Assembly (NCBI RefSeq): GCF_003096655.1
Contig: NZ_QEKQ01000001.1
Span: forward strand, 372,001 to 436,000
Reading direction: 5' to 3'
DNA from: Tamilnaduibacter salinus
GTDB lineage: Bacteria; Pseudomonadota; Gammaproteobacteria; Pseudomonadales; Oleiphilaceae
Length of the DNA: 64,000 bases
The notes beneath the pieces were generated by a model that saw only the letters and a list, made by a program, of their open reading frames with translations, was not told where the DNA came from and made no database searches. This document shows positions 3,587-16,075 of this stretch, piece after piece. Each line of letters begins with the position of its first letter. Positions within the stretch are counted from its first letter, which is position 1. The position numbers and the translations under genes are program-made.

Positions 3587-6313
3587 GTGAATCTCACTTG
3601 GAGCAACGCGCCAGATTACTTTCGGTATTGGGGTAAGGCAAAGCCCTCAGAGGATTCTGACGGAACACCATGCCATCTATTGCCTTTCCACAGCCTGGAT
3701 GTGGCAGCGGTTGGCCATCATCTGCTGGCGCCCCATACGGCCCGGTGCCAGGAACTGGCCGCGGCCATGTCGCTGGAGCCAGAGCAATTACAGTCGTTGT
3801 TTGTTTTCAGTCTGGCCGTGCATGACCTGGGCAAGTTTGCACGTGCGTTTCAGTCCCTGGCTGAGCCAGACTTGCCCGAGTTGGTCACGCCGGACTCGTC
3901 GCTGGCCTACGGTACACAGGAATGGCCCCATCACAGCGAAGCGGGCGCTGTTTTTCTCAAGGCTTTTCTCAAGGGCGAGCTCAAGCAGGAAGGTTTGCAA
4001 GCCTGGGGGTGGTTCGAATTAGGGAGCGGTCCCAACGATTTTTTGCGTATCTTGCTGGGAATGGCGTTTGGTCACCATGGCAAGCCGGTGGACGCCGGCA
4101 GCAACAAGCGTCCCTCGCCGGGTTTTCCCGAAGACCGTCAGGCGGCCTGGGAATACACCTGCGAAGTGGCAAGCTGGCTTCGTCCTCAATGGCCGGAGCA
4201 GGCACAGGACAAAGGCTGGTGTAAACATTTCAAGAAATTGACCTGGCACCTGGCCGGCTTTGCGGTGCTGGCGGACTGGCTGGGGTCCGATCAGTCGGTC
4301 TTTCCTTATCAGGCAACTCCACAAGCACTGGATGACTACTGGCAGAGCAAGGCGCTGCCACAAGCCGAGCGGGCACTGGAAAAACTGGGCTTTGGCAAAC
4401 CTCCGACTCCATCTTCCTTTCCGGGCGTGCGGTCTTTCTTTGGCTTTGATCCGACGCCTTTGCAGCAATGGGCGCAGGACCTGACCTGGCAGCCCGGTCC
4501 CCAGCTTTTTGTGCTGGAAGATGTCACCGGTGCAGGCAAGACTGAAGCCGCCATGACCTTGGTGCATCGCCTGTTGGAAAACGGCCAGGCCCAAGGGGTG
4601 TATTTCGGCTTGCCCACCATGGCGACGTCCAATGCCATGTACGAGCGTGTGGCAAATACTTATCGCCGCTGGTACGACGGAGAGCAGGTACCCAATCTGG
4701 TGCTGGCCCACGGGGCGCGTCATCTCAAATCGGGCTTTGTTCAGTCCGTGATATCTGAACAGGAACGGGATCATGCCTATGGCGATGAGGAGCAAACCGC
4801 TTCGGCCGCCTGTAACCAGTGGTTTGCCGATTCGCGCAAGAAAGCGCTGCTGGCGGACGTGGGAGTGGGCACAGTAGACCAGGCACTGATGGCGGTATTG
4901 CCCTTCAAGCACCAGACTCTGCGTTTGATTGGTCTGGCCAACAAGGTGTTGGTGGTGGACGAGGTACACGCCTGTGACGACTACATGGCCAGGCTGCTGG
5001 AAGAAGTCTTGCACGCTCATGCCCAGCAGGGTGGCAGTGCCATCCTGCTTACCGCCACTTTGCCCCATGCCATGAAGCGTCGTCTGGTGGCGGCATACCA
5101 ACGAGGGCGGGGCTTGGATGCCGAGCCGGTGGATGAGCAACCCGCTTTTCCGCTTGCCACCCATGTAGCGGATCAGAGCCTTGAGCAAGTACCACTTGCC
5201 ACTCGTGACAGTGTGACTCGCCGGGTGGCGGTGGCGATGTTCAACCAACCAGAAGAGGTGATTGAGCATCTGATCGACACGGCCGAGCATGGTCAGTGTG
5301 GTTGCTGGATACGTAACACGGTGGATGACGCCATCGCCTCTTACCGGGCCCTGCGTGAACGGGCACCGGACCCGAGCAAGGTTATGCTATTTCACAGTCG
5401 CTTTGTCATGGCGGACCGGCAGGCCATTGAGCAAGCCGCGCTGGAACGGTTCGGCAAAGAGTCCAACGGGGAAAGTCGGGCCGGCTGGATTCTGGTCAGT
5501 ACCCAGGTGGTTGAGCAATCCCTGGACCTGGATTTCGATCAGATGGTCAGTGACCTGGCGCCCATGGATCTCCTGATTCAGCGAGCTGGGCGCCTGCATC
5601 GCCATCGCCGAGACGGCAGCGGCAACCCCGTGGACACCGACGACCAGCGCCAGCCACCAGTTCTTCACCTGTTGGCGCCCCCCTGTGACGACCAGCCCGG
5701 CCCTGACTGGCTGTCCGCCCGGTTGCCGGGCACCGGCGCCGTTTACAGAGATCACGGCCAGCTCTGGCTGACTCTACAAACCCTGCGCGACGAAGGCGGT
5801 ATCACCATGCCAGATCGCGCCCGTCATCTGATCGAGTCTGTCTTCGGTGAAGACGCCGAGAACCACATTCCCGAAGGGCTGCAGCAACGCCACCTGGATC
5901 AAGAGGGCGAACGCAGCAGTCACCGGGCCATGGCTGGCTTCAATCGCCTGGATATGGGGCAGGGCTACAGCGTTAAGGCCAGCCATGGCTGGATGGATGA
6001 GGTGAATGTTGATATCGGCACCCGCCTGAACGAGGAACCCAGCATCACGGTCACCCTTGTCCGTGAAGGTGAGGATGGCGCTTTGAAGCCTTGGGTAGAT
6101 GCGGACCGCTTCGCTTGGGAACTGAGCCAATTGCAGACCCGCGAGTCTCTGGCAAAGCGCTTGCCGGAATGGCCGCAAGCACTAGCGGCAGAGCGTGAAA
6201 GATTGGTTGAGCGCTTTCCGGGCCTGAAATTTAGTCGGTTGTGGATTGTGGATGGGGATATTGGAGGTATGGCTTACAGTGCCGTCCTTGGTCTGCATAG
6301 GAGTCCCCGCTAG
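3587..6313 (+). CDS. cas3: Cas3 helicase-nuclease, type I-E
   Basis: The 908-residue effector is recruited to the Cascade R-loop, where it nicks and degrades target DNA. The N-terminal HD nuclease shows HDLGKF near residue 80 and a histidine-rich stretch ending in GHHGKP. The SF2 helicase core shows the P-loop TGAGKTEAA near 311, a DEVH box near 457, the LLTATLP motif and QRAGRLHRHRR near 663. The GTG start has GGGAAGGA just upstream. The last codons and the TAG stop lie inside a CRISPR-repeat-like hairpin on the opposite strand (6297-6325), so the C-terminus (HRSPR) is partly dictated by that element. The next cas gene begins 464 bp later, an unusually long gap that holds the regulatory elements described below. 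Confidence 0.97.
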   Translation: MNLTWSNAPDYFRYWGKAKPSEDSDGTPCHLLPFHSLDVAAVGHHLLAPHTARCQELAAAMSLEPEQLQSLFVFSLAVHDLGKFARAFQSLAEPDLPELVTPDSSLAYGTQEWPHHSEAGAVFLKAFLKGELKQEGLQAWGWFELGSGPNDFLRILLGMAFGHHGKPVDAGSNKRPSPGFPEDRQAAWEYTCEVASWLRPQWPEQAQDKGWCKHFKKLTWHLAGFAVLADWLGSDQSVFPYQATPQALDDYWQSKALPQAERALEKLGFGKPPTPSSFPGVRSFFGFDPTPLQQWAQDLTWQPGPQLFVLEDVTGAGKTEAAMTLVHRLLENGQAQGVYFGLPTMATSNAMYERVANTYRRWYDGEQVPNLVLAHGARHLKSGFVQSVISEQERDHAYGDEEQTASAACNQWFADSRKKALLADVGVGTVDQALMAVLPFKHQTLRLIGLANKVLVVDEVHACDDYMARLLEEVLHAHAQQGGSAILLTATLPHAMKRRLVAAYQRGRGLDAEPVDEQPAFPLATHVADQSLEQVPLATRDSVTRRVAVAMFNQPEEVIEHLIDTAEHGQCGCWIRNTVDDAIASYRALRERAPDPSKVMLFHSRFVMADRQAIEQAALERFGKESNGESRAGWILVSTQVVEQSLDLDFDQMVSDLAPMDLLIQRAGRLHRHRRDGSGNPVDTDDQRQPPVLHLLAPPCDDQPGPDWLSARLPGTGAVYRDHGQLWLTLQTLRDEGGITMPDRARHLIESVFGEDAENHIPEGLQQRHLDQEGERSSHRAMAGFNRLDMGQGYSVKASHGWMDEVNVDIGTRLNEEPSITVTLVREGEDGALKPWVDADRFAWELSQLQTRESLAKRLPEWPQALAAERERLVERFPGLKFSRLWIVDGDIGGMAYSAVLGLHRSPR

Positions 6314-6386
6314 CGCGGGGAACGGAAGTGTTTGTTTTTACTGGCAAAAGTAAAAACAGGTTCATCCCCAAGGGATTGAGGAAGTA
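6297..6386 (-). CRISPR. Degenerate mini-CRISPR (pseudo-repeat, 32-nt spacer, pseudo-repeat), creA/creR-like
   Basis: Read on the minus strand, pseudo-repeat 1 (6386-6358) keeps the last part of the array repeat, GGGGATGAACC. It also forms an ATCCC-TTG-GGGAT hairpin and would leave the 5' handle AUGAACCU, one base different from the array handle. A spacer of exactly 32 nt follows (6357-6326). Pseudo-repeat 2 (6325-6297) matches 19 of the first 22 repeat positions and then diverges over the last seven. The 29-32-29 geometry equals that of the main array. The hairpin of pseudo-repeat 2 overlaps the cas3 stop. Known relatives are crRNA-like antitoxin (CreA) or cas-regulating (CreR) RNAs processed by Cas6. 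That assignment here is inferred from architecture, promoter and target site. Confidence 0.85.
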
Positions 6387-6392
6387 AGGAAA

Positions 6393-6401
6393 AGTATAAC
6401 A
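6393..6401 (-). promoter_or_regulatory. Extended -10 promoter for the mini-CRISPR RNA
   Basis: The minus strand reads TG-T-TATACT, a near-consensus extended -10 element (TGnTATAAT). A start about seven bases downstream falls at 6386, the first base of pseudo-repeat 1. No good -35 is visible at the proper distance, as is usual for extended -10 promoters. Confidence 0.6.
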
Positions 6402-6404
6402 TGC

Positions 6405-6439
6405 TTCGGGGAAGGGTTGATTGCGAAAGTTAAAACCTT
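6405..6439 (-). promoter_or_regulatory. Predicted Cascade target of the mini-CRISPR RNA, with AAG PAM
   Basis: On the minus strand an AAG (6439-6437), the canonical type I-E PAM, precedes a protospacer at 6436-6405. Against the mini-CRISPR spacer it matches at positions 1-5, 7-11, 13, 14, 16, 19, 20 and 28. The only mismatches in the first 14 are positions 6 and 12, which are flipped out of the crRNA-DNA hybrid in type I-E complexes. A perfect functional seed with a mismatched PAM-distal half is what is expected for binding without Cas3 cleavage. The site covers the -35 and spacer region of the plus-strand promoter at 6417-6445. Confidence 0.75.
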
Positions 6440-6445
6440 TATTGT
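6417..6445 (+). promoter_or_regulatory. Promoter reading into the cas8e leader
   Basis: TTGATT (6417-6422) and TATTGT (6440-6445) are separated by 17 bp and match the sigma-70 boxes at four of six bases each. Transcription would begin near 6452 and run through a structured leader, an 8-codon minigene and then cas8e. The predicted crRNA-like target (6405-6439) lies across the -35 and spacer, so Cascade bound there should block RNA polymerase. This promoter is back to back with the minus-strand mini-CRISPR promoter. Confidence 0.5.
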
Positions 6446-6463
6446 TTTTTTGCCCCATAAAAA

Positions 6464-6756
6464 CGCGCTGGGAACAGGTGCGTTACCGCAGCGCGCGTTG
6501 GTAGCACTGGAAGGGTAGCTCTAAAGCACTTTTCTGGCAATGCCTGTCGCGGTTGGGGCGAGACTCTGTTTCTAAGGAGGTGAGGCATGTGGCCAGTAAA
6601 AAGTCGCAAGTGATTTTTAGGCGACATATCACCCGAAAGGGTGAAGTTCTAGATGCCCATGACTATGGGCTCAAGGCATGGCCAATCCACATTGGTGGTA
6701 AGGCTAAGTCGGGCAGGAAGTCCCGAAAATAACACCGGTGCCCAGGGATGGGCGCC
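6464..6756 (+). ncRNA. Structured 5' leader of the cas8e operon; possible OMEGA/HEARO-like RNA or CreT-type RNA
   Basis: The stretch is rich in hairpins: CGCGCTG/CAGCGCG (6464-6470, 6489-6495), GTCGC/GCGAC (6603-6607, 6621-6625), CACCC-GAAA-GGGTG (6630-6643), GCCCAT-GACT-ATGGGC (6655-6670), CCAAT-CCAC-ATTGG (6682-6695), TCGGG/CCCGA (6709-6713, 6722-6726) and GGTGCCC/GGGCGCC with one wobble (6737-6743, 6750-6756). It ends 9 nt before the cas8e ribosome site. The serial small hairpins placed directly before an ORF recall, from memory only, the HEARO (IscB omega-RNA) class. It could equally be an unknown leader or a toxin RNA. No IscB gene is present. Confidence 0.45.
6587..6613 (+). CDS. Eight-codon minigene (MWPVKSRK) behind a perfect Shine-Dalgarno; candidate toxin or leader peptide
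   Basis: TAAGGAGGTG at 6573-6582 is the full complement of the 16S rRNA tail, far stronger than any cas gene's site in this window. It sits 4 nt before an ATG that opens an 8-codon frame ending in TGA. Super-strong initiation on a very short frame is a known way to sequester ribosomes or tRNAs, and CreT toxins guarding CRISPR loci work through such frames. No tandem rare codons are seen, so the mode of action is unclear. The alternatives are a translated leader peptide controlling cas8e or a fortuitous site. Codons 3-6 share the 11-mer GCCAGTAAAAA with the mini-CRISPR spacer. Confidence 0.45.
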   Translation: MWPVKSRK

Positions 6757-6777: not shown

Positions 6778-8418
6778 ATGAATCTGTTAACCGACCCCTG
6801 GCTGCCATTCAAACGCCGCGATGGCAGACAGGAATATCGACCTGTCACCGCCATGGTGGACCCGGACGTTATTGATCTCGCTCTGCCTCGGTCGGATTTC
6901 CAGGGTGCAGCGTATCAATTCCTGATTGGTTTGCTGCAAACCACTATGGCACCGGAAGACATGGAAGAGTGGGTGGAGTGGTATCAAGCACCGCCCTCTG
7001 AGGAGGTCTGCCAGGAATATCTGGAGAAATGGGGACCGGCCTTTGAGTTTGATAGCGATGGCTCCGCATTTATGCAGGACCATGATGCGATGGCGGAAGA
7101 AAAGGCCACCGATATCGCGGCCTTACTGATTGACTCCCCTGGCGCTTCCACTATCAAGAACAATACCGATCACTTCGTTAAAGCGGGCAGAGTAGAACAG
7201 CTATGTCTGGATTGCGCCGCGATCGCGTTGTTCACATTGCAGATCAATGCTCCGTCCGGTGGCAAGGGGCACAGAACTGGCCTGCGCGGCGGTGGCCCCC
7301 TGACCACGTTGGTGATGCCCACCGCTTCAGGGAGCTCTCTTTGGCATCGACTTTGGCTCAATGTGCGGGATTCGGACAGCTGGACCTATGAGTCGCCCGG
7401 CGCTTCCGATGCCAAGGTCTTTCCATGGCTGGGGAAAACGAAGGTCAGCGATAAGGGCCAAGGGACTTACCCGGATGACGTTCACCCTCTTCACTCATAC
7501 TGGGCCATGCCCCGGCGTATGCGTCTCAATATTGATGCCTCTTCCTGCGAGTGTGATCTATGTGGGCGGCGGGGCGAGTACACGGTTTCTTCGCTGCGGA
7601 CACGGAACTATGGCTTCAATTACGACGGTCCCTGGACGCATCCGCTAACGCCTTACCGCTTCGACCCCAAAAAACCGGAACAATTACCGTATTCGCGCAA
7701 GGCACAAACAGATGGTTTGGGCTACCGACACTGGGAAGCCTTGACCATGAAGGACGAAGAGGAAAAGGGCTTTTTGCCGGCACCGGTGGTGCTTGATTAC
7801 GTGGCCAAGTGCGATAAAGCCGACGATCTGGACGTGGCGTTGCCGGCGGTAGCCGGCTTGTGGGTGTTTGGTTATGACATGGACAACATGAAAGCCCGAT
7901 GCTGGTATGGCGCGCATATGCCGCTATTGGCCTTAGAGGATGACGCGCGAGCTTTGGCCCAACTGTGGCTGCGGCAGATGATCGACCTTACGGAAAGCAG
8001 CTCTCGTCTTTTACAAACCCAAGTCAAGGAAGCCTGGTTCAGCCGACCCAAGGACGCCAAGGGAGATGTCAGCTATATCAGTGCATCCCTGTGGGAATCT
8101 ACCGAGCAGGCCTTCTACCAACGCCTGATGGAATTGGGTGAATTATTGACTGGCGAAGCTCCCCCACAACGATTTCCTGCCGAGGTGGCGGCTAGCTGGT
8201 ACCGCACCGTTACCCGCCAGGCCACTGACCTGTTCGATGAATATGCCCTCAGTGGCCCGGCGGAACAGTTGGATATGAAGCGCATTACGAAGGCCCGTAA
8301 CGTCTTCCGCAAAAAACTCCATACCGGCAAGGAGGCAAAAGCCTTCCGCAAGATTGGGCGTCTGGACGACAACGGGCAGCCGCAAGAGGCCAGGGAAAAA
8401 CAAGGAGAAACCGCATGA
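6778..8418 (+). CDS. cas8e: Cas8e (Cse1/CasA), large Cascade subunit
   Basis: The 546-residue large subunit of type I-E Cascade recognises the PAM and recruits Cas3. The N-terminus MNLLTDPWLPFKRRDGR is diagnostic of Cse1. A Cys-rich loop (CECDLCGRRGEY) lies mid-protein and a helical bundle forms the C-terminal third. ATG 6778 is chosen over the in-frame ATG at 6748 because AAGGAG (6766-6771) precedes it at proper spacing and the family sequence begins here, while 6748 sits in a hairpin loop. The stop overlaps the next start (ATGA), indicating translational coupling. The gene heads the operon cas8e-cse2-cas7e-cas5e-cas6e-cas1-cas2. Confidence 0.97.
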   Translation: MNLLTDPWLPFKRRDGRQEYRPVTAMVDPDVIDLALPRSDFQGAAYQFLIGLLQTTMAPEDMEEWVEWYQAPPSEEVCQEYLEKWGPAFEFDSDGSAFMQDHDAMAEEKATDIAALLIDSPGASTIKNNTDHFVKAGRVEQLCLDCAAIALFTLQINAPSGGKGHRTGLRGGGPLTTLVMPTASGSSLWHRLWLNVRDSDSWTYESPGASDAKVFPWLGKTKVSDKGQGTYPDDVHPLHSYWAMPRRMRLNIDASSCECDLCGRRGEYTVSSLRTRNYGFNYDGPWTHPLTPYRFDPKKPEQLPYSRKAQTDGLGYRHWEALTMKDEEEKGFLPAPVVLDYVAKCDKADDLDVALPAVAGLWVFGYDMDNMKARCWYGAHMPLLALEDDARALAQLWLRQMIDLTESSSRLLQTQVKEAWFSRPKDAKGDVSYISASLWESTEQAFYQRLMELGELLTGEAPPQRFPAEVAASWYRTVTRQATDLFDEYALSGPAEQLDMKRITKARNVFRKKLHTGKEAKAFRKIGRLDDNGQPQEAREKQGETA

Positions 8419-8975
8419 GCGATGAACCTTTTTATTTTCGCATCAAGGAACCCAGCGTCCGAGAGGCGGTGCTGGAATGGTGGCAGCAACTGGACAAACA
8501 GCGTGGAACTCGCGCCGAACTCAGGCGTAGCGACACGCTGGATGCGGTGTTGTTGACCGAAGGTTTTAGAAATCTTTGGCAGGCGCTGGAACAAACCGGT
8601 CAGCGTCGGGACCGGGACATGCTCTCCTGGGCTTGTGTGGCCGCCGCTCTGGCGGAAGTGCGTGAGCAACCAACAGCGAAAGACACCACGTTCGCGCGGC
8701 GGCTGGGAGAGCAAAAAGAAAAGACCGGTAAGCCCTACATGAGCGAAATGCGTTTCGCGCAACTGCAAAAAAGCCGTAGCGGTGATGATTTTCTGATGCG
8801 GCTACGCCGTGCTTTGTCGTTGATTAACAAGACCGCACCGGTGTTGTCCCTGGCGGATAACATCCTGCATTGGTTTCAGGAGCAGCAGGGCGATCAGGCT
8901 GCCCGGCCCATGGATCGCTTGGCGGTGCGTTGGGCCACTGACTATTTCACGGCGGTCAACGCCTACGACAAGTAA
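8415..8975 (+). CDS. cse2: Cse2 (CasB), small Cascade subunit
   Basis: This all-helical small subunit of 186 residues forms a dimer along the Cascade belly and stabilises the R-loop through the displaced strand. The protein is rich in basic and helical segments. ERDRDMLSWACVAAALAEV-type helices and the LRRALSLINKTAPVLSLADNI segment match the family layout of two helical domains. Position between cas8e and cas7e, with a 4-bp overlap upstream, fits the standard type I-E order. It is slightly longer than the roughly 160-residue E. coli protein. Confidence 0.94.
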   Translation: MSDEPFYFRIKEPSVREAVLEWWQQLDKQRGTRAELRRSDTLDAVLLTEGFRNLWQALEQTGQRRDRDMLSWACVAAALAEVREQPTAKDTTFARRLGEQKEKTGKPYMSEMRFAQLQKSRSGDDFLMRLRRALSLINKTAPVLSLADNILHWFQEQQGDQAARPMDRLAVRWATDYFTAVNAYDK

Positions 8976-9015
8976 ACCTTGATACACAAATAGAGCATCA
9001 CAAAGGACTGATATC

Positions 9016-10053
9016 ATGAGCACTTTTATCCAACTCCACCTTCTGACTTCCTACCCGCCGGCCAATCTGAACCGGGACGATCTGGGCAAACCCAAGACCG
9101 CCTTCATGGGCGGTGCCGAACGGCTGCGGGTGTCCTCGCAATCGCTCAAACGCCATTGGCGAACCTCTGATCTGTTTCAGGAATCGTTGGCAGGCAATCT
9201 GGGAACCCGTACCAAGCGACTTGGCCTGGAGGTCATGACGCGCTTGCAAGAAGGCGGTATCGCAGAAGGTAAGGCGAAAGACTGGGCCGGAAGAATTGCT
9301 GATGTGTTTGGCAAGCTGGAAAAAGACAGTGTGGAGCTGTCGCAACTGGCCCATATCAGCCCGGAAGAACGCCAGGCTGTGGATGCGCTGACCAAGACAC
9401 TGATCGAGGACAAGCGGGCGCCAGAAAAGGAAGAACTGGACCTGCTTCGCAAAAAACCGTCAGCGGCGGATATCGGCTTGTTTGGTCGGATGCTGGCGGA
9501 CGATCCCGCTTTTAACGTGGAGGCGGCCTGTCAGGTGGCCCATGCTATTACCGTGCATCCCGTGGTCATCGAGGACGACTACTTTACCGCCGTGGATGAT
9601 CTCAACAGTGGCGATGAAGACCGGGGTGCTGCCCACATCGGTGAAACCGGCTTTGCCGCCGGCCTGTTTTACAGCTATGTCTGCATCAACCGCGACCAGT
9701 TGATCGATAATCTCCATGGCGACGAGGCGCTGGCGGACAAGGCCATCGCCGCCCTGGCGGAAGCGGCTCTCAAGGTGTCCCCCACCGGTAAGCAGAACAG
9801 CTTTGGTTCACGGGCCTATGCCTCTTACGTCATGGCGGAAAAGGGCTCCCAACAGCCGCGCTCCCTGTCGGTAGCGTTCCTTAAGCCGGTGCAGGGCCAG
9901 GATCAGGCATCGGATGCCATTGCGTGTCTGGAAGAACAAGCGCAGCGCTTCGATCAGGTGTATGGCGAATGCGCGGATCGGCGCTATAGCCTTAACGCTC
10001 ACAGTGGGGAAGGCAGCTTTAAGGAGCTGATGGACTTTCTCAAACAAGACTAG
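9016..10053 (+). CDS. cas7e: Cas7e (Cse4/CasC), Cascade backbone
   Basis: The 345-residue RAMP-fold protein polymerises along the crRNA, probably six copies per complex, and kinks it every sixth base. The start MSTFIQLHLLTSYPPANLNR, then GKPKTAFMGGAERLRVSSQS, are hallmark Cas7e sequences. A thumb-like insertion and C-terminal RRYSLNAHSGEG follow. AAAGGA lies a few bases upstream of the ATG. A 40-bp gap separates it from cse2. The every-sixth-base kink is directly relevant to the mismatch pattern of the mini-CRISPR target at 6405-6436. Confidence 0.97.
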   Translation: MSTFIQLHLLTSYPPANLNRDDLGKPKTAFMGGAERLRVSSQSLKRHWRTSDLFQESLAGNLGTRTKRLGLEVMTRLQEGGIAEGKAKDWAGRIADVFGKLEKDSVELSQLAHISPEERQAVDALTKTLIEDKRAPEKEELDLLRKKPSAADIGLFGRMLADDPAFNVEAACQVAHAITVHPVVIEDDYFTAVDDLNSGDEDRGAAHIGETGFAAGLFYSYVCINRDQLIDNLHGDEALADKAIAALAEAALKVSPTGKQNSFGSRAYASYVMAEKGSQQPRSLSVAFLKPVQGQDQASDAIACLEEQAQRFDQVYGECADRRYSLNAHSGEGSFKELMDFLKQD

Positions 10054-10063
10054 GAGGCGCCCC

Positions 10064-10786
10064 ATGGAAGCGTTGATTTTCCAACTCTACGGCCCTCTGG
10101 CCAGTTGGGGAGCACCGGCGGTGGGGGAAACCCGCCCAAGCTCGGATCACCCGGGCCGCGCCGCCTTGTTGGGTTTGCTGGCGGCGGCGCTGGGTATTCG
10201 CCGGGATGATGGCCCCGGCCAGCAGGCGCTGGCATCGTCCGTGCGTTTTGCGGTGAAGCAATTCAGCGCCGGCCGGCTGATGCGCGATTACCACACCGTG
10301 CAGGTGCCTGGCCGGGACAAGAAGGCCCGCTACTTCACCCGCAAGGATGAACTGGCCGTGCCCAAGGATAAGCTCAATACCGTGCTTTCCAGCCGTGAAT
10401 ATCGTCAGGATGGTTTGTGGCAGGTGGCGGTACTGCTTAATGAGCACAGCGACTGGAATCTGGATGAACTGCAAACTGCGCTGAAAACCCCGGTATTTAC
10501 GCCTTACCTGGGCCGCAAGGCATGTCCGCTGGCGGCCCCATTGGCCCCGAAAAAAGTCCAGGCGAATGGATTGCGTGAAGCCTTCGCATCGGCGCCGCCC
10601 CGCATTTGCGACCAGCATGGCCGCTGGCTGCATTTGCCGGACAGCGTCGACTTCTACTGGGAAGATCATGCCGGTGATATCGCCGTGCAGGATACCCGCC
10701 AACCCTCGGACGACGTGATCAGCCGGGAGCGCTGGCAATTCGGCAGCCGTCAGGAACACCATGCACGTATCAGGGAGGAGGGCTGA
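10064..10786 (+). CDS. cas5e: Cas5e (CasD), crRNA 5'-handle binding subunit
   Basis: The 240-residue RAMP protein caps the 5' handle of the crRNA and anchors Cas8e. MEALIFQLYGPLASWGAPAV followed by GETRPSSDHPGRAALLGLLA matches the Cas5e N-terminal motif. AGGAGG precedes the ATG. The stop TGA shares its final A with the cas6e ATG (TGATG). The substrate is the handle AUGAACCG of the array, or AUGAACCU for the mini-CRISPR RNA if that is loaded. Confidence 0.96.
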   Translation: MEALIFQLYGPLASWGAPAVGETRPSSDHPGRAALLGLLAAALGIRRDDGPGQQALASSVRFAVKQFSAGRLMRDYHTVQVPGRDKKARYFTRKDELAVPKDKLNTVLSSREYRQDGLWQVAVLLNEHSDWNLDELQTALKTPVFTPYLGRKACPLAAPLAPKKVQANGLREAFASAPPRICDQHGRWLHLPDSVDFYWEDHAGDIAVQDTRQPSDDVISRERWQFGSRQEHHARIREEG

Positions 10787-11481
10787 TGTATTTATCCCGC
10801 GTCAGAGTGGCGACTCAGGGGCTCGACCGTAACGCCCTGGTGAAATTGCTGTCGGGCGATGCCTACGCCAACCATCAGTTGCTATGGCGGCTGTTTACGC
10901 AAGAGGAGGAGCGACCATTTCTGTTTCGTCAGGAAATGGAAAAAGATCAGCTGGATTCCCAGGAATCGCCACGAGGACTGCCGCTTTTCTATGTGTTGTC
11001 ATCACGCGAGCCCGAGCCAGTGCCCGGGGTGTTGGAATGCCAAAGCAAACCCTTCGACCCGAAGTTGTCGCCGGGTGATCGGCTGTTGTTCAAACTGCGC
11101 GCCAACCCCACAATGGCCCGCAAAACCGACGGCGAAAAACGCTCTCGTCGCCATGATGTGTTGATGGATGCCAAATGGCAGTGTCGGCAGCAAGGTCGGG
11201 ATGCGCCCTGGGAAGTACGTGAGGCCATGGAAGCCAACGCCGAACAATGGCTGGTCAACCGTAGTGAAGCCTGGGGGTTTACGTTGGATACCACGCCTCA
11301 GTTGAGTGGTTACCGACAGCACCAGTGGCAACGCAAACAGCGGCAGATCCGGTTTTCCTCCGTGGATTATGAAGGTGTGATCACCGTGGCTGACCCGGAG
11401 CGTTTGCGTGCCGCCTTGTTTAATGGCGTGGGTCGTAGCCGCGCCTTTGGGTGCGGCATGCTTATGGTGCGGCGTGGATAG
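10786..11481 (+). CDS. cas6e: Cas6e (Cse3/CasE), crRNA-processing endoribonuclease
   Basis: The 231-residue nuclease cuts at the 3' base of each repeat hairpin and stays bound to it. A histidine in YANHQLLWRLF near residue 26 corresponds to the catalytic histidine of the family. The C-terminal glycine-rich loop GVGRSRAFGCGMLMVRR binds RNA. It overlaps cas5e by one base. Both pseudo-repeats of the mini-CRISPR keep a stem, so they are plausible substrates, though not shown to be. Confidence 0.96.
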   Translation: MYLSRVRVATQGLDRNALVKLLSGDAYANHQLLWRLFTQEEERPFLFRQEMEKDQLDSQESPRGLPLFYVLSSREPEPVPGVLECQSKPFDPKLSPGDRLLFKLRANPTMARKTDGEKRSRRHDVLMDAKWQCRQQGRDAPWEVREAMEANAEQWLVNRSEAWGFTLDTTPQLSGYRQHQWQRKQRQIRFSSVDYEGVITVADPERLRAALFNGVGRSRAFGCGMLMVRRG

Positions 11482-11484
11482 CGT

Positions 11485-12700
<1,216 letters not shown>

Positions 12701-12810: not shown

Positions 12811-15800
12811 CTGTTCCCCGCGTTCGCGGGGATGAACCGTTCTGGCTCACTTGCTACGATTTGAGCAACCTCTGTTCCCCGCGTTCGCGGGGATGAACCG
12901 GTGGCCGGTTGGGTTCCCGATCCCCGTGACATCTGTTCCCCGCGTTCGCGGGGATGAACCGGTGGCCGGTTGGGTTCCCGATCCCCGTGACATCTGTTCC
13001 CCGCGTTCGCGGGGATGAACCGGGGCTCCAACCCATCGGCGATCCCGGCCGACACTGTTCCCCGCGTTCGCGGGGATGAACCGAGCATCGGTCAGCTCGT
13101 CAAAGAGCTGGACTCCTGTTCCCCGCGTTCGCGGGGATGAACCGCGTGGCACCCATTCCCAAATCACCCACTACTACTGTTCCCCGCGTTCGCGGGGATG
13201 AACCGAATTGTGCGAGGAAGCGTAACCCGCCCTGCCCCCTGTTCCCCGCGTTCGCGGGGATGAACCGCTGGCAGATCACGCGAACGATGACGGCGAGTGC
13301 TGTTCCCCGCGTTCGCGGGGATGAACCGACACCAGAGCTGTTTGCCGTTCGCGAATCGCTCTGTTCCCCGCGTTCGCGGGGATGAACCGGCGGAGCAGAA
13401 GAAGCGCGTGGCCGGGATCAACTGTTCCCCGCGTTCGCGGGGATGAACCGGAGCCACACCTATGTCAACGTCAATCTGTCATCTGTTCCCCGCGTTCGCG
13501 GGGATGAACCGCGAGCGAGGTTCAGGGCATGAGCTACGGCTGCCTGTTCCCCGCGTTCGCGGGGATGAACCGGACGAGGTCAGGGACGACCTCTCCCCTG
13601 CGTCCTGTTCCCCGCGTTCGCGGGGATGAACCGCGGAGGGCGCGGCATGATCCCAGGCAACCAAACCTGTTCCCCGCGTTCGCGGGGATGAACCGCTACA
13701 AACCGAAACAGCTTTGTCAGGCCGGTTCTGTTCCCCGCGTTCGCGGGGATGAACCGATTTACGGGAACGCAAGGGGTCAGAACGGAAACTGTTCCCCGCG
13801 TTCGCGGGGATGAACCGGAACGGGCGGCCAAGGAGTTTGACCTCCTGCCCTGTTCCCCGCGTTCGCGGGGATGAACCGGACACTAGTATCACGCTAATAC
13901 GCGGGGAACGCTGTTCCCCGCGTTCGCGGGGATGAACCGCCAGGTACCGCTCCCGGTTATCTCGATCCATCCTGTTCCCCGCGTTCGCGGGGATGAACCG
14001 CAGCCTGAGCTTCTTTCATGTGCTCGCTTTTCCTGTTCCCCGCGTTCGCGGGGATGAACCGGCGTAGATCAGCTCAATCAGCTCCGAGAACACCTGTTCC
14101 CCGCGTTCGCGGGGATGAACCGGTTTCCGACGTATTACATGGACTCATTGACAACTGTTCCCCGCGTTCGCGGGGATGAACCGCGGATCGACGCCTAGTG
14201 TTTTTTCCTGAAAAACTGTTCCCCGCGTTCGCGGGGATGAACCGGCGGACGAGTCGCTGTGGGATATGAGGCGCGCCTGTTCCCCGCGTTCGCGGGGATG
14301 AACCAGGCGAGCTTCCCAGAATGGTGACTGAGTTTGACTGTTCCCCGCGTTCGCGGGGATGAACCGGGTTGAAAGGCGACGGCGAAAAATTTTTGTCCCT
14401 GTTCCCCGCGTTCGCGGGGATGAACCGAGCGACAGGTGCCGCCACGCATGCAGGTATATCTGTTCCCCGCGTTCGCGGGGATGAACCGGCTCTGCAACGG
14501 TTCGAGCGTTTCCATGACATCTGTTCCCCGCGTTCGCGGGGATGAACCGACTACTTGCCCTCTTGCTCGCCCGCTTCCAGGCTGTTCCCCGCGTTCGCGG
14601 GGATGAACCGGATTGGGCGTTTTGCTGGTTGGTGGTAGTCGTCTGTTCCCCGCGTTCGCGGGGATGAACCAGTCACGCTCTGACTCCGTTCGTGGCGTCC
14701 ACGCCTGTTCCCCGCGTTCGCGGGGATGAACCGATGGGTATGAGGAGTGTCCTCGCTGTGTCGGCCTGTTCCCCGCGTTCGCGGGGATGAACCGGCTGTC
14801 CGTCACGCCAAACAGAGAGGCACCAGCTGTTCCCCGCGTTCGCGGGGATGAACCGTCATACATCCCCTTCTCGCCGTTATAATGCGGCTGTTCCCCGCGT
14901 TCGCGGGGATGAACCGCTCTGTCAAGAGCTGCTGACCCACTGATTTATCCTGTTCCCCGCGTTCGCGGGGATGAACCGCCCGATGCACGATGATGCAACT
15001 ATCCGGAAATCTGTTCCCCGCGTTCGCGGGGATGAACCGGCTGTCAGAGCATACGACGCAACTGGCTTTGCCTGTTCCCCGCGTTCGCGGGGATGAACCG
15101 CTGATTGAGAAGCGGGAACGCCCGGGCCATGGCTGTTCCCCGCGTTCGCGGGGATGAACCGTTCCTCCGCCACGGGTGGGGAAAGCGAGAGACCTGTTCC
15201 CCGCGTTCGCGGGGATGAACCGCGGCCAGCGCTACTGGCGACCTTCTTTACCGACTGTTCCCCGCGTTCGCGGGGATGAACCGTAACCAGCATCGACAAT
15301 GCGATTGCACGCCTGCTGTTCCCCGCGTTCGCGGGGATGAACCGGAGACGAAACCATGGCCAACGCAGAAAACGCCTGTTCCCCGCGTTCGCGGGGATGA
15401 ACCGGGAACAACCATTGAACAGATCGCAGGGATGAACTGTTCCCCGCGTTCGCGGGGATGAACCGGCCTAATCCGGCCACCGTGGAGCCCCATCAATCTG
15501 TTCCCCGCGTTCGCGGGGATGAACCGAACGAGTCGCCGCGGTCGATCGTGAACGTCTGCTGTTCCCCGCGTTCGCGGGGATGAACCGCCCTGAAACTGGT
15601 CCGGGATGAGCAGGCGAAACTGTTCCCCGCGGTCGCGGGGATGAACCGGTGTGCATGCCTCGTTCGCAGAGCCAATCTTCCTGTTCCCCGCGGTCGCGGG
15701 GATGAACCGACAAGGGTAGTGGCGTTCGCGATACCTTTTGCCTGTTCCCCGCGGTCGCGGGGATGAACCGGAGTTCCACAACCTCGCCTACCAAATGCAC

Positions 15801-16075
15801 AACTGTTCCCCGCGTTCGCGGGGATGAACCGCCGGTTTGGCGTAAACCGGGATCGAACTATCCCTGTTCCCCGCGTTCGCGGGGATGAACCGCATGTTGG
15901 TGATCGCCTGTTGCAGATAGCCCCCTGTTCCCCGCGTTCGCGGGGATAAACCGCTGTTCTCCGTCCAGTCGATGACGTGCCAGTTGTGTTCCCCGCGTTC
16001 GCGGGGATGAACCGGATCAGAGCCCCTCCAAAACCCGATCCCAGCACTGTTCCCCGCGCTAGCGGGGATGGACCA
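12811..16075 (+). CRISPR. Type I-E CRISPR array, 54 repeats and 53 spacers
   Basis: The 29-bp repeat begins CTGTTCCCCGCG, has a TTC or TTCG loop and ends GCGGGGATGAACCG, the type I-E form. Period is 61 bp, with 32-bp spacers. Spacers 7, 14, 31 and 35 are 33 bp and spacer 42 is 31 bp. Spacers 2 and 3 (12901-12932, 12962-12993) are identical. Repeats 25 and 31 end in A instead of G. Repeats 47-49 have a GGTC loop, repeat 52 has GATAAACCG and repeat 53 begins with G. The last (16047-16075) is degenerate, with a GCTAG loop and GGACCA end. Transcription is expected from the leader at the low-coordinate end. Confidence 0.99.

Follow-up and report, generated by a model that had tools for sequence, protein, structure and literature searches.

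A mini-CRISPR and its AAG-flanked self-target in the cas3–cas8e gap of a type I-E locus of Tamilnaduibacter salinus

The DNA analysed here, a stretch of 64,000 nucleotides from Tamilnaduibacter salinus (the window), carries a single repeat-spacer-repeat unit between cas3 and cas8e, and part of its spacer matches a site in the same gap. The question is whether such a unit guides Cascade to a promoter of its own locus and, if so, which product would be held down, the cas genes or a small protein encoded in front of them.

A repeat-spacer-repeat unit between cas3 and cas8e

The type I-E locus in the window is complete, with the gene set of the type: cas3, a gap of 464 bp, cas8e, cse2, cas7, cas5e, cas6e, cas1e and a CRISPR array, all on the plus strand. 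The helicase/nuclease gene cas3 (positions 3587–6313) was assigned by the Pfam families Cas3_HD (1.2e-39) and Cas3-like_C_2 (1.1e-40), cas8e (cse1/casA, 6778–8418) by TIGR02547 (1.4e-118), and the five genes from cse2 to cas1e (8415–12405) by Pfam and NCBIfam. The canonical array (12811–16017) has the repeat CTGTTCCCCGCGTTCGCGGGGATGAACCG with a 61-nt period and at least 50 repeats, 50 copies being counted by a strict pattern. The genome measures 3.4 Mb, and the nearest relatives found belong to Alcanivorax/Alloalcanivorax.

The minus strand of the gap reads psi-repeat 1, a 32-nt spacer and psi-repeat 2, a unit that is ectopic in lying outside the array and inside the cas locus, as is typical of the cas-regulating RNAs (CreRs) reviewed in PMC13131331, PMC12737573 and PMC12948488. 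Psi-repeat 1 (6358–6386, minus strand) has a degenerate 5' part, its own hairpin and a conserved 8-nt handle, ATGAACCT (6365–6358), to be compared with the array handle ATGAACCG; the psi-repeat 1 of relatives is likewise degenerate yet self-complementary. The spacer (6326–6357, minus strand; GTTTTTACTTTTGCCAGTAAAAACAAACACTT, read from 6357 to 6326) would be the guide of a CreR/CreA-like RNA. Psi-repeat 2 (6300–6325, minus strand; CCGTTCCCCGCGCTAGCGGGGACTCC) was identified by alignment to the array repeat and retains an intact 5' half and stem with a degenerate 3' end; its fold has an energy of -15 kcal/mol. Both psi-repeats fold as hairpins, and the 86-nt mini-CRISPR RNA has a fold z of -5.3. 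Because of the handle, the hairpin-forming repeats and this strong fold, the mini-CRISPR is judged to be real. The opposite orientation, a plus-strand transcript, was ruled out, since the handle and stem fit the minus strand only, and a known RNA family was likewise rejected, with no Rfam match above threshold. The loop of psi-repeat 2 (CCCCGC-TAG-CGCGGGG) contains the stop codon of cas3 (TAG, 6311–6313), and in nine of 24 relatives checked the cas3 stop codon likewise falls inside the psi-repeat 2 hairpin.

The self-target and its counterparts in related loci

The self-protospacer (6405–6436, minus strand; GTTTTAACTTTCGCAATCAACCCTTCCCCGAA, read from 6436 to 6405) lies 79 nt upstream of the spacer and is flanked by an AAG PAM (6437–6439, minus strand; CTT on the plus strand). 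The spacer matches it at positions 1–5, 7–11, 13, 14, 16, 19, 20 and 28, a PAM-flanked partial complementarity with a seed of 1–5 and 7–11 within the unit's own cas locus, as described for CreRs. A first-pass annotation of this DNA had placed the protospacer and PAM here, with mismatches in the first 14 positions at 6 and 12 alone and scattered matches beyond, and the alignment confirmed each of these points. Its count of ten matching seed positions is exact for the core, but 12 of the first 14 positions actually match. It had further put the odds of a chance match at 1 in 70,000; computed over the gap minus the mini-CRISPR on both strands, the PAM plus the ten core positions is expected at 1 in 85,600 under uniform composition, close to that figure, but at 6.0e-5 (1 in 16,700) under a first-order Markov model, which gives 4.7e-6 for the PAM plus 12 positions. 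The PAM-plus-ten-base pattern AAGGTTTTNACTTT occurs exactly once in the 3.4-Mb genome, at this site.

For comparison, regions upstream of cas8e were taken from 80 named loci and from further genomes. A spacer counted as a candidate on two features only, a handle resembling that of a repeat and the presence of a second repeat. Its target was taken as the 16-nt match that scored best over the whole gap, in a scoring blind to the PAM and to where mismatches fell. The best target carries an AAG PAM in 35 of 48 candidate mini-CRISPR loci, compared with 1.4% of the best hits when spacers were swapped between loci; in this null, AAG with at least 12 of 16 matches occurred in 0 of 2188 cases. New genomes added seven AAG matches, one of which (L165) was excluded as probably an ordinary array, and 41 loci were retained; some of these are related and are therefore not 41 independent events.

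The spacers of the 41 type I-E loci differ from one another, yet each matches a site in its own gap. No mismatch was found at positions 1–5 and 7, and two, six, two and two were found at positions 8 to 11, respectively. In contrast to this core, position 6 is mismatched in 29 and position 12 in 35 of the 41 loci, rates near the 75% expected for unconstrained bases. Mismatches climb from position 14 toward random at 18–20, such that pairing fades past about position 16.

The same pattern is seen in the changes that separate related loci. Between the window and Alloalcanivorax venustensis (L058), the spacer differs at positions 7 and 10 (A to G and T to G, respectively), and the target is changed likewise at 7 and 10; target drift within the first 14 positions is confined to 12 and 14. 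Compensated changes also separate L068 from L077 (positions 4, 9 and 10) and L070 from L083 (core positions 1, 2, 8 and 9), while few core changes lack a counterpart (L066/L078 at 9, L083/L091 at 8). The co-variation of spacer and target that the first-pass annotation had named as a check is thus present, both across the 41 loci and in the compensated pairs. These comparisons support co-evolution of guide and target, in which positions 6 and 12 are free and 1–5 and 7–11 held. Chance similarity was ruled out by the Markov expectation, the spacer-swap null and the co-variation.

The cas3–cas8e gap is either long or almost absent across the loci. Among the named loci, a self-target was identified in 24 of the 36 whose gap measures 100 bp or more, against none of the 43 with a shorter gap; L069 was placed in the short-gap class through an error of the ORF rule and does have a mini-CRISPR whose target is flanked by AAG. 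The circuit is dispensable, since the gap is missing from L059, L060 and L064, all of them close relatives. For the mini-CRISPR spacers of three loci (L072, L022 and L097), the gap of the locus holds no match flanked by AAG, and their targets may be elsewhere; in three others (L122, L036 and L158) the AAG-flanked self-target is on the strand opposite to the usual one.

Predicted promoters and the small open reading frame

A promoter predicted to read toward cas8e (6417–6445, plus strand) overlaps the protospacer and PAM. It consists of a -35 box TTGATT (6417–6422), a 17-nt spacing and a -10 box TATTGT (6440–6445), and is a weak consensus match (score 7.0); a stricter scan of the window's gap found no sigma-70 promoter. 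In many relatives, the -10 box of the best cas8e-ward sigma-70-like match falls into one of two clusters, +24 to +29 and +35 to +37, counted from the base at which pairing begins; the TTGACA-like box either takes its first Ts from the PAM complement CTT or lies one helical turn further on. The best match in the window falls outside both main clusters. A second promoter, for the mini-CRISPR RNA (6393–6420, minus strand), is predicted from a -10 box TATACT (6398–6393) and a -35-like TCAACC (6420–6415). The latter falls inside the protospacer, and a complex bound there may therefore also limit its own guide.

The cas8e-ward promoter is predicted to read first into a 47-aa ORF (6589–6732, plus strand; GTG start, RBS GGAGG; VASKKSQVIFRRHITRKGEVLDAHDYGLKAWPIHIGGKAKSGRKSRK), a possible Cascade-repressed product, and then into cas8e; therefore the cas genes, a small toxin or both may be repressed. 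Relative to L058, the ORF shows 12 synonymous and 6 non-synonymous codon changes, 13 of the 21 changes falling on the third codon position, and it is, as far as this comparison indicates, under coding selection. Its leader (6446–6588, plus strand) has strong predicted folding (z = -2.5). Identity to L058 is 93% in the leader (6456–6588), 85% in the ORF and 69% in the protospacer plus PAM; no other part of the gap is as conserved as this leader segment, which has no Rfam match. A hairpin follows the ORF (6737–6756, plus strand), a terminator-like match of which 0.7 would be expected by chance; it may be a weak terminator or attenuator, and its arms are mostly kept in L058.

Homologues of the ORF occupy the same slot in Onishia, Halomonas, Aliidiomarina and Bowmanella. 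Members of this basic family of 37–47 aa, located between target and cas8e (the window, L058, L070, L083, L087, L116 and L118), share the invariant pattern IFRR...G...DA..YG..AWPI. With the window ORF as query, no direct homologues were found in plasmids and phages (E 0.01) or in 117 other relatives; other family members as queries gave weak plasmid matches near HTH/ImmA and HipA genes. Searches of the 47-aa protein against Pfam and NCBIfam gave no match, which also ruled out a KilA-N CreP, and its best PHROG match is weak and itself of unknown function. The AlphaFold model (pLDDT 66, pTM 0.35) was too poor for a fold search.

Two further families were noted in this slot. A tryptophan-rich WDWV/WNYV-type family abuts cas8e in Halomonas-type loci (L066, L077, L078, L100, L102 and L106), and hydrophobic peptides such as MDQIKGIIDAINSFSPAPLAVIGLALVLAIILALKM are found in L019, L020, L021, L107, L115, L155 and L167. 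In about a dozen relatives the scan detected no small ORF between site and cas8e. The small ORF is thus present in some relatives and unseen in others, and the same switch is therefore used with and without it.

Cascade-guided repression and its alternatives

The reading we favor, with a probability of roughly 0.62, is that the circuit mainly exerts negative feedback on Cascade, in the manner of CreR, and that the 47-aa ORF is a passenger or provides a second output. We infer the following course, from RNA production through binding and repression to physiology. A crRNA-like RNA would be transcribed from the minus-strand mini-CRISPR, processed by Cas6e and loaded into Cascade, which would pair with the AAG-flanked site over about the first 14 bases while skipping 6 and 12. 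The complete R-loop needed to call Cas3 would not form, and the complex would stay bound, blocking the promoter that faces the small ORF and cas8e; it would probably also block the divergent promoter of the mini-CRISPR itself. The block would lift when Cascade is scarce, inhibited or occupied by array crRNAs. Because positions 6 and 12 are free, the core is held and the site lies at a predicted promoter, the supported features fit Cascade binding without a full R-loop.

Published work bears on this proposal from several sides. An AAG PAM with five seed bases is enough for binding by type I-E Cascade in vivo (PMC5904413). Short-seed off-target binding in E. coli had no measurable effect on nearby transcription, most such sites being expected by those authors inside genes, and promoter repression by E. 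coli Cascade falls with PAM-distal mismatches (PMC5904413). The self-repressor proposed in the first-pass annotation is thus borne out in part: co-evolution, the freedom at 6 and 12 and the location at a predicted cas8e-ward promoter speak for it, but a conserved ORF and leader intervene and the promoter of the window is a weak match. The conserved ORF and the hairpin between site and cas8e count against autorepression, as do the negative strict promoter scan, the position of the window's best promoter match outside the two main clusters and the close relatives that lack the gap.

In a rival reading the key product would be the 47-aa protein, a translated toxin made when Cascade fails, with the guide and site acting as above and cas8e expressed separately or via read-through. 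Such a CreTA-like addiction module is possible but improbable, and it is weighed below cas autorepression; both could hold. It draws on the matching layout of the cas3/casA gap of the Citrobacter rodentium I-E locus (PMC12055562), on the apparent coding selection on the ORF, the conserved leader and the hairpin after the ORF, and on the unrelated small or hydrophobic peptides in this slot of other relatives. It fits less well with a basic protein unlike a membrane toxin, with the empty Pfam and NCBIfam searches and the weak PHROG match, and with the dozen or so relatives that have guide and site but no small ORF seen.

That the unit is a degenerate leftover array, functionless, with a spacer that resembles its neighbor by chance or through past accidental self-acquisition, would agree with its degenerate repeats and with pairing over only half the spacer. 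A decaying relic is not expected to hold 1–5 and 7–11 exact, however, and the chance of 6e-5, the co-change of spacer and target in several lineages and the 6/12 pattern in 41 loci with different sequences make this reading very unlikely. Just as little weight is given to the gap being chiefly a transcription terminator or structured RNA, whose repeat hairpins act on the cas3 mRNA rather than as a guide: the cas3 stop codon in psi-repeat 2 and the strong RNA fold would suit it, but the PAM, the exact seed match and the compensatory changes would be left unexplained.

The idea itself is already published, and since CreR, the Haloarcula hubeiense CreA and the C. rodentium CreTA have been described, the window is classed with these known circuits as a further example. 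According to reviews, CreRs act as autorepressors in type I-B, I-E and V-A systems by being complementary in part to a promoter (PMC13131331, PMC12737573). The window shares with them a mini-CRISPR for a crRNA-like RNA that has limited complementarity to a site within its own cas locus, I-E being among the named subtypes, and differs in the conserved small ORF and folded leader between the predicted targeted promoter and cas8e; that promoter is a weak prediction overlapping the site. In C. rodentium, a crRNA-like antitoxin on the opposite strand targets an UP element and represses, through Cascade, a toxin of 96 bp that must be translated (PMC12055562). The I-E subtype, the cas3/casA gap, the opposite-strand guide, the target at the promoter and the small ORF downstream are common to both, the window likewise having a crRNA-like antitoxin candidate opposite a predicted promoter that drives a small ORF; in contrast, the C. 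rodentium PAM is ATG and its authors report no homologue of the 96-bp ORF (PMC12055562), whereas the window ORF has 47 codons and recurs in several genera.

The I-B CreA of H. hubeiense pairs at 1–5 and 7–11, mutation of 6 or 12 being harmless and the other ten positions essential (PMC8501985). In CreTA of H. hubeiense/H. hispanica as in the window, psi-repeats flank a spacer that pairs at these positions with a PAM-flanked promoter, a predicted one in the window, 6 and 12 being free, but the system is type I-B and its toxin a tRNA-sequestering RNA (PMC8501985). The Acinetobacter I-F CreTA also uses Cascade-guided repression, with a 20-nt pseudo-spacer like the short class in relatives of the window, but 17 of 20 positions pair, the target is downstream of the promoter and the toxin is a bactericidal RNA (PMC10097628). 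In CrePA, a crRNA-like RNA and a Cas effector likewise repress a protein-coding gene, CreP, typically with a KilA-N domain (PMC12737573); the window has no such domain.

The locus is a well-supported addition to the type I-E regulators that Cascade guides, and the 41 loci provide natural evidence that Cascade requires a match at 1–5 and 7–11 but takes no notice of bases 6 and 12. The cas3–cas8e gap often houses such a circuit, and the small uncharacterized proteins that recur behind the same predicted promoter are candidate alarms or toxins. We tentatively suggest that the guide-controlled promoter between cas3 and cas8e of type I-E loci is a cargo slot, into which tiny proteins of three or more unrelated families have been placed repeatedly, a single switch serving both cas autorepression and a small-protein alarm. 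With similar reserve, the families would be the basic IFRRY...AWPI proteins of the window, the tryptophan-rich proteins and the hydrophobic membrane peptides.

The guides themselves differ from array spacers in two respects. The 5' 24 nt of the window spacer can form a 9-bp hairpin (GTTTTTACT/AGTAAAAAC), and self-stems of at least 8 bp are found in two of 22 long-class guides compared with 10 of 3066 array spacers. Perfect self-stems are longer in long-class guides than in array spacers (rank test, p = 2e-5), a pattern noticed before testing that few new loci could check and that serves as a lead; guides may be weakened by self-pairing and hence outcompeted by array crRNAs. Guide length is 20–23 nt in 17 of the 41 loci and about 32 nt in the others, while array spacers are nearly all 32 nt. 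A 20-nt guide, for which there is a precedent in the I-F pseudo-spacer (PMC10097628), is 12 nt shorter, which corresponds to two Cas7 steps of six.
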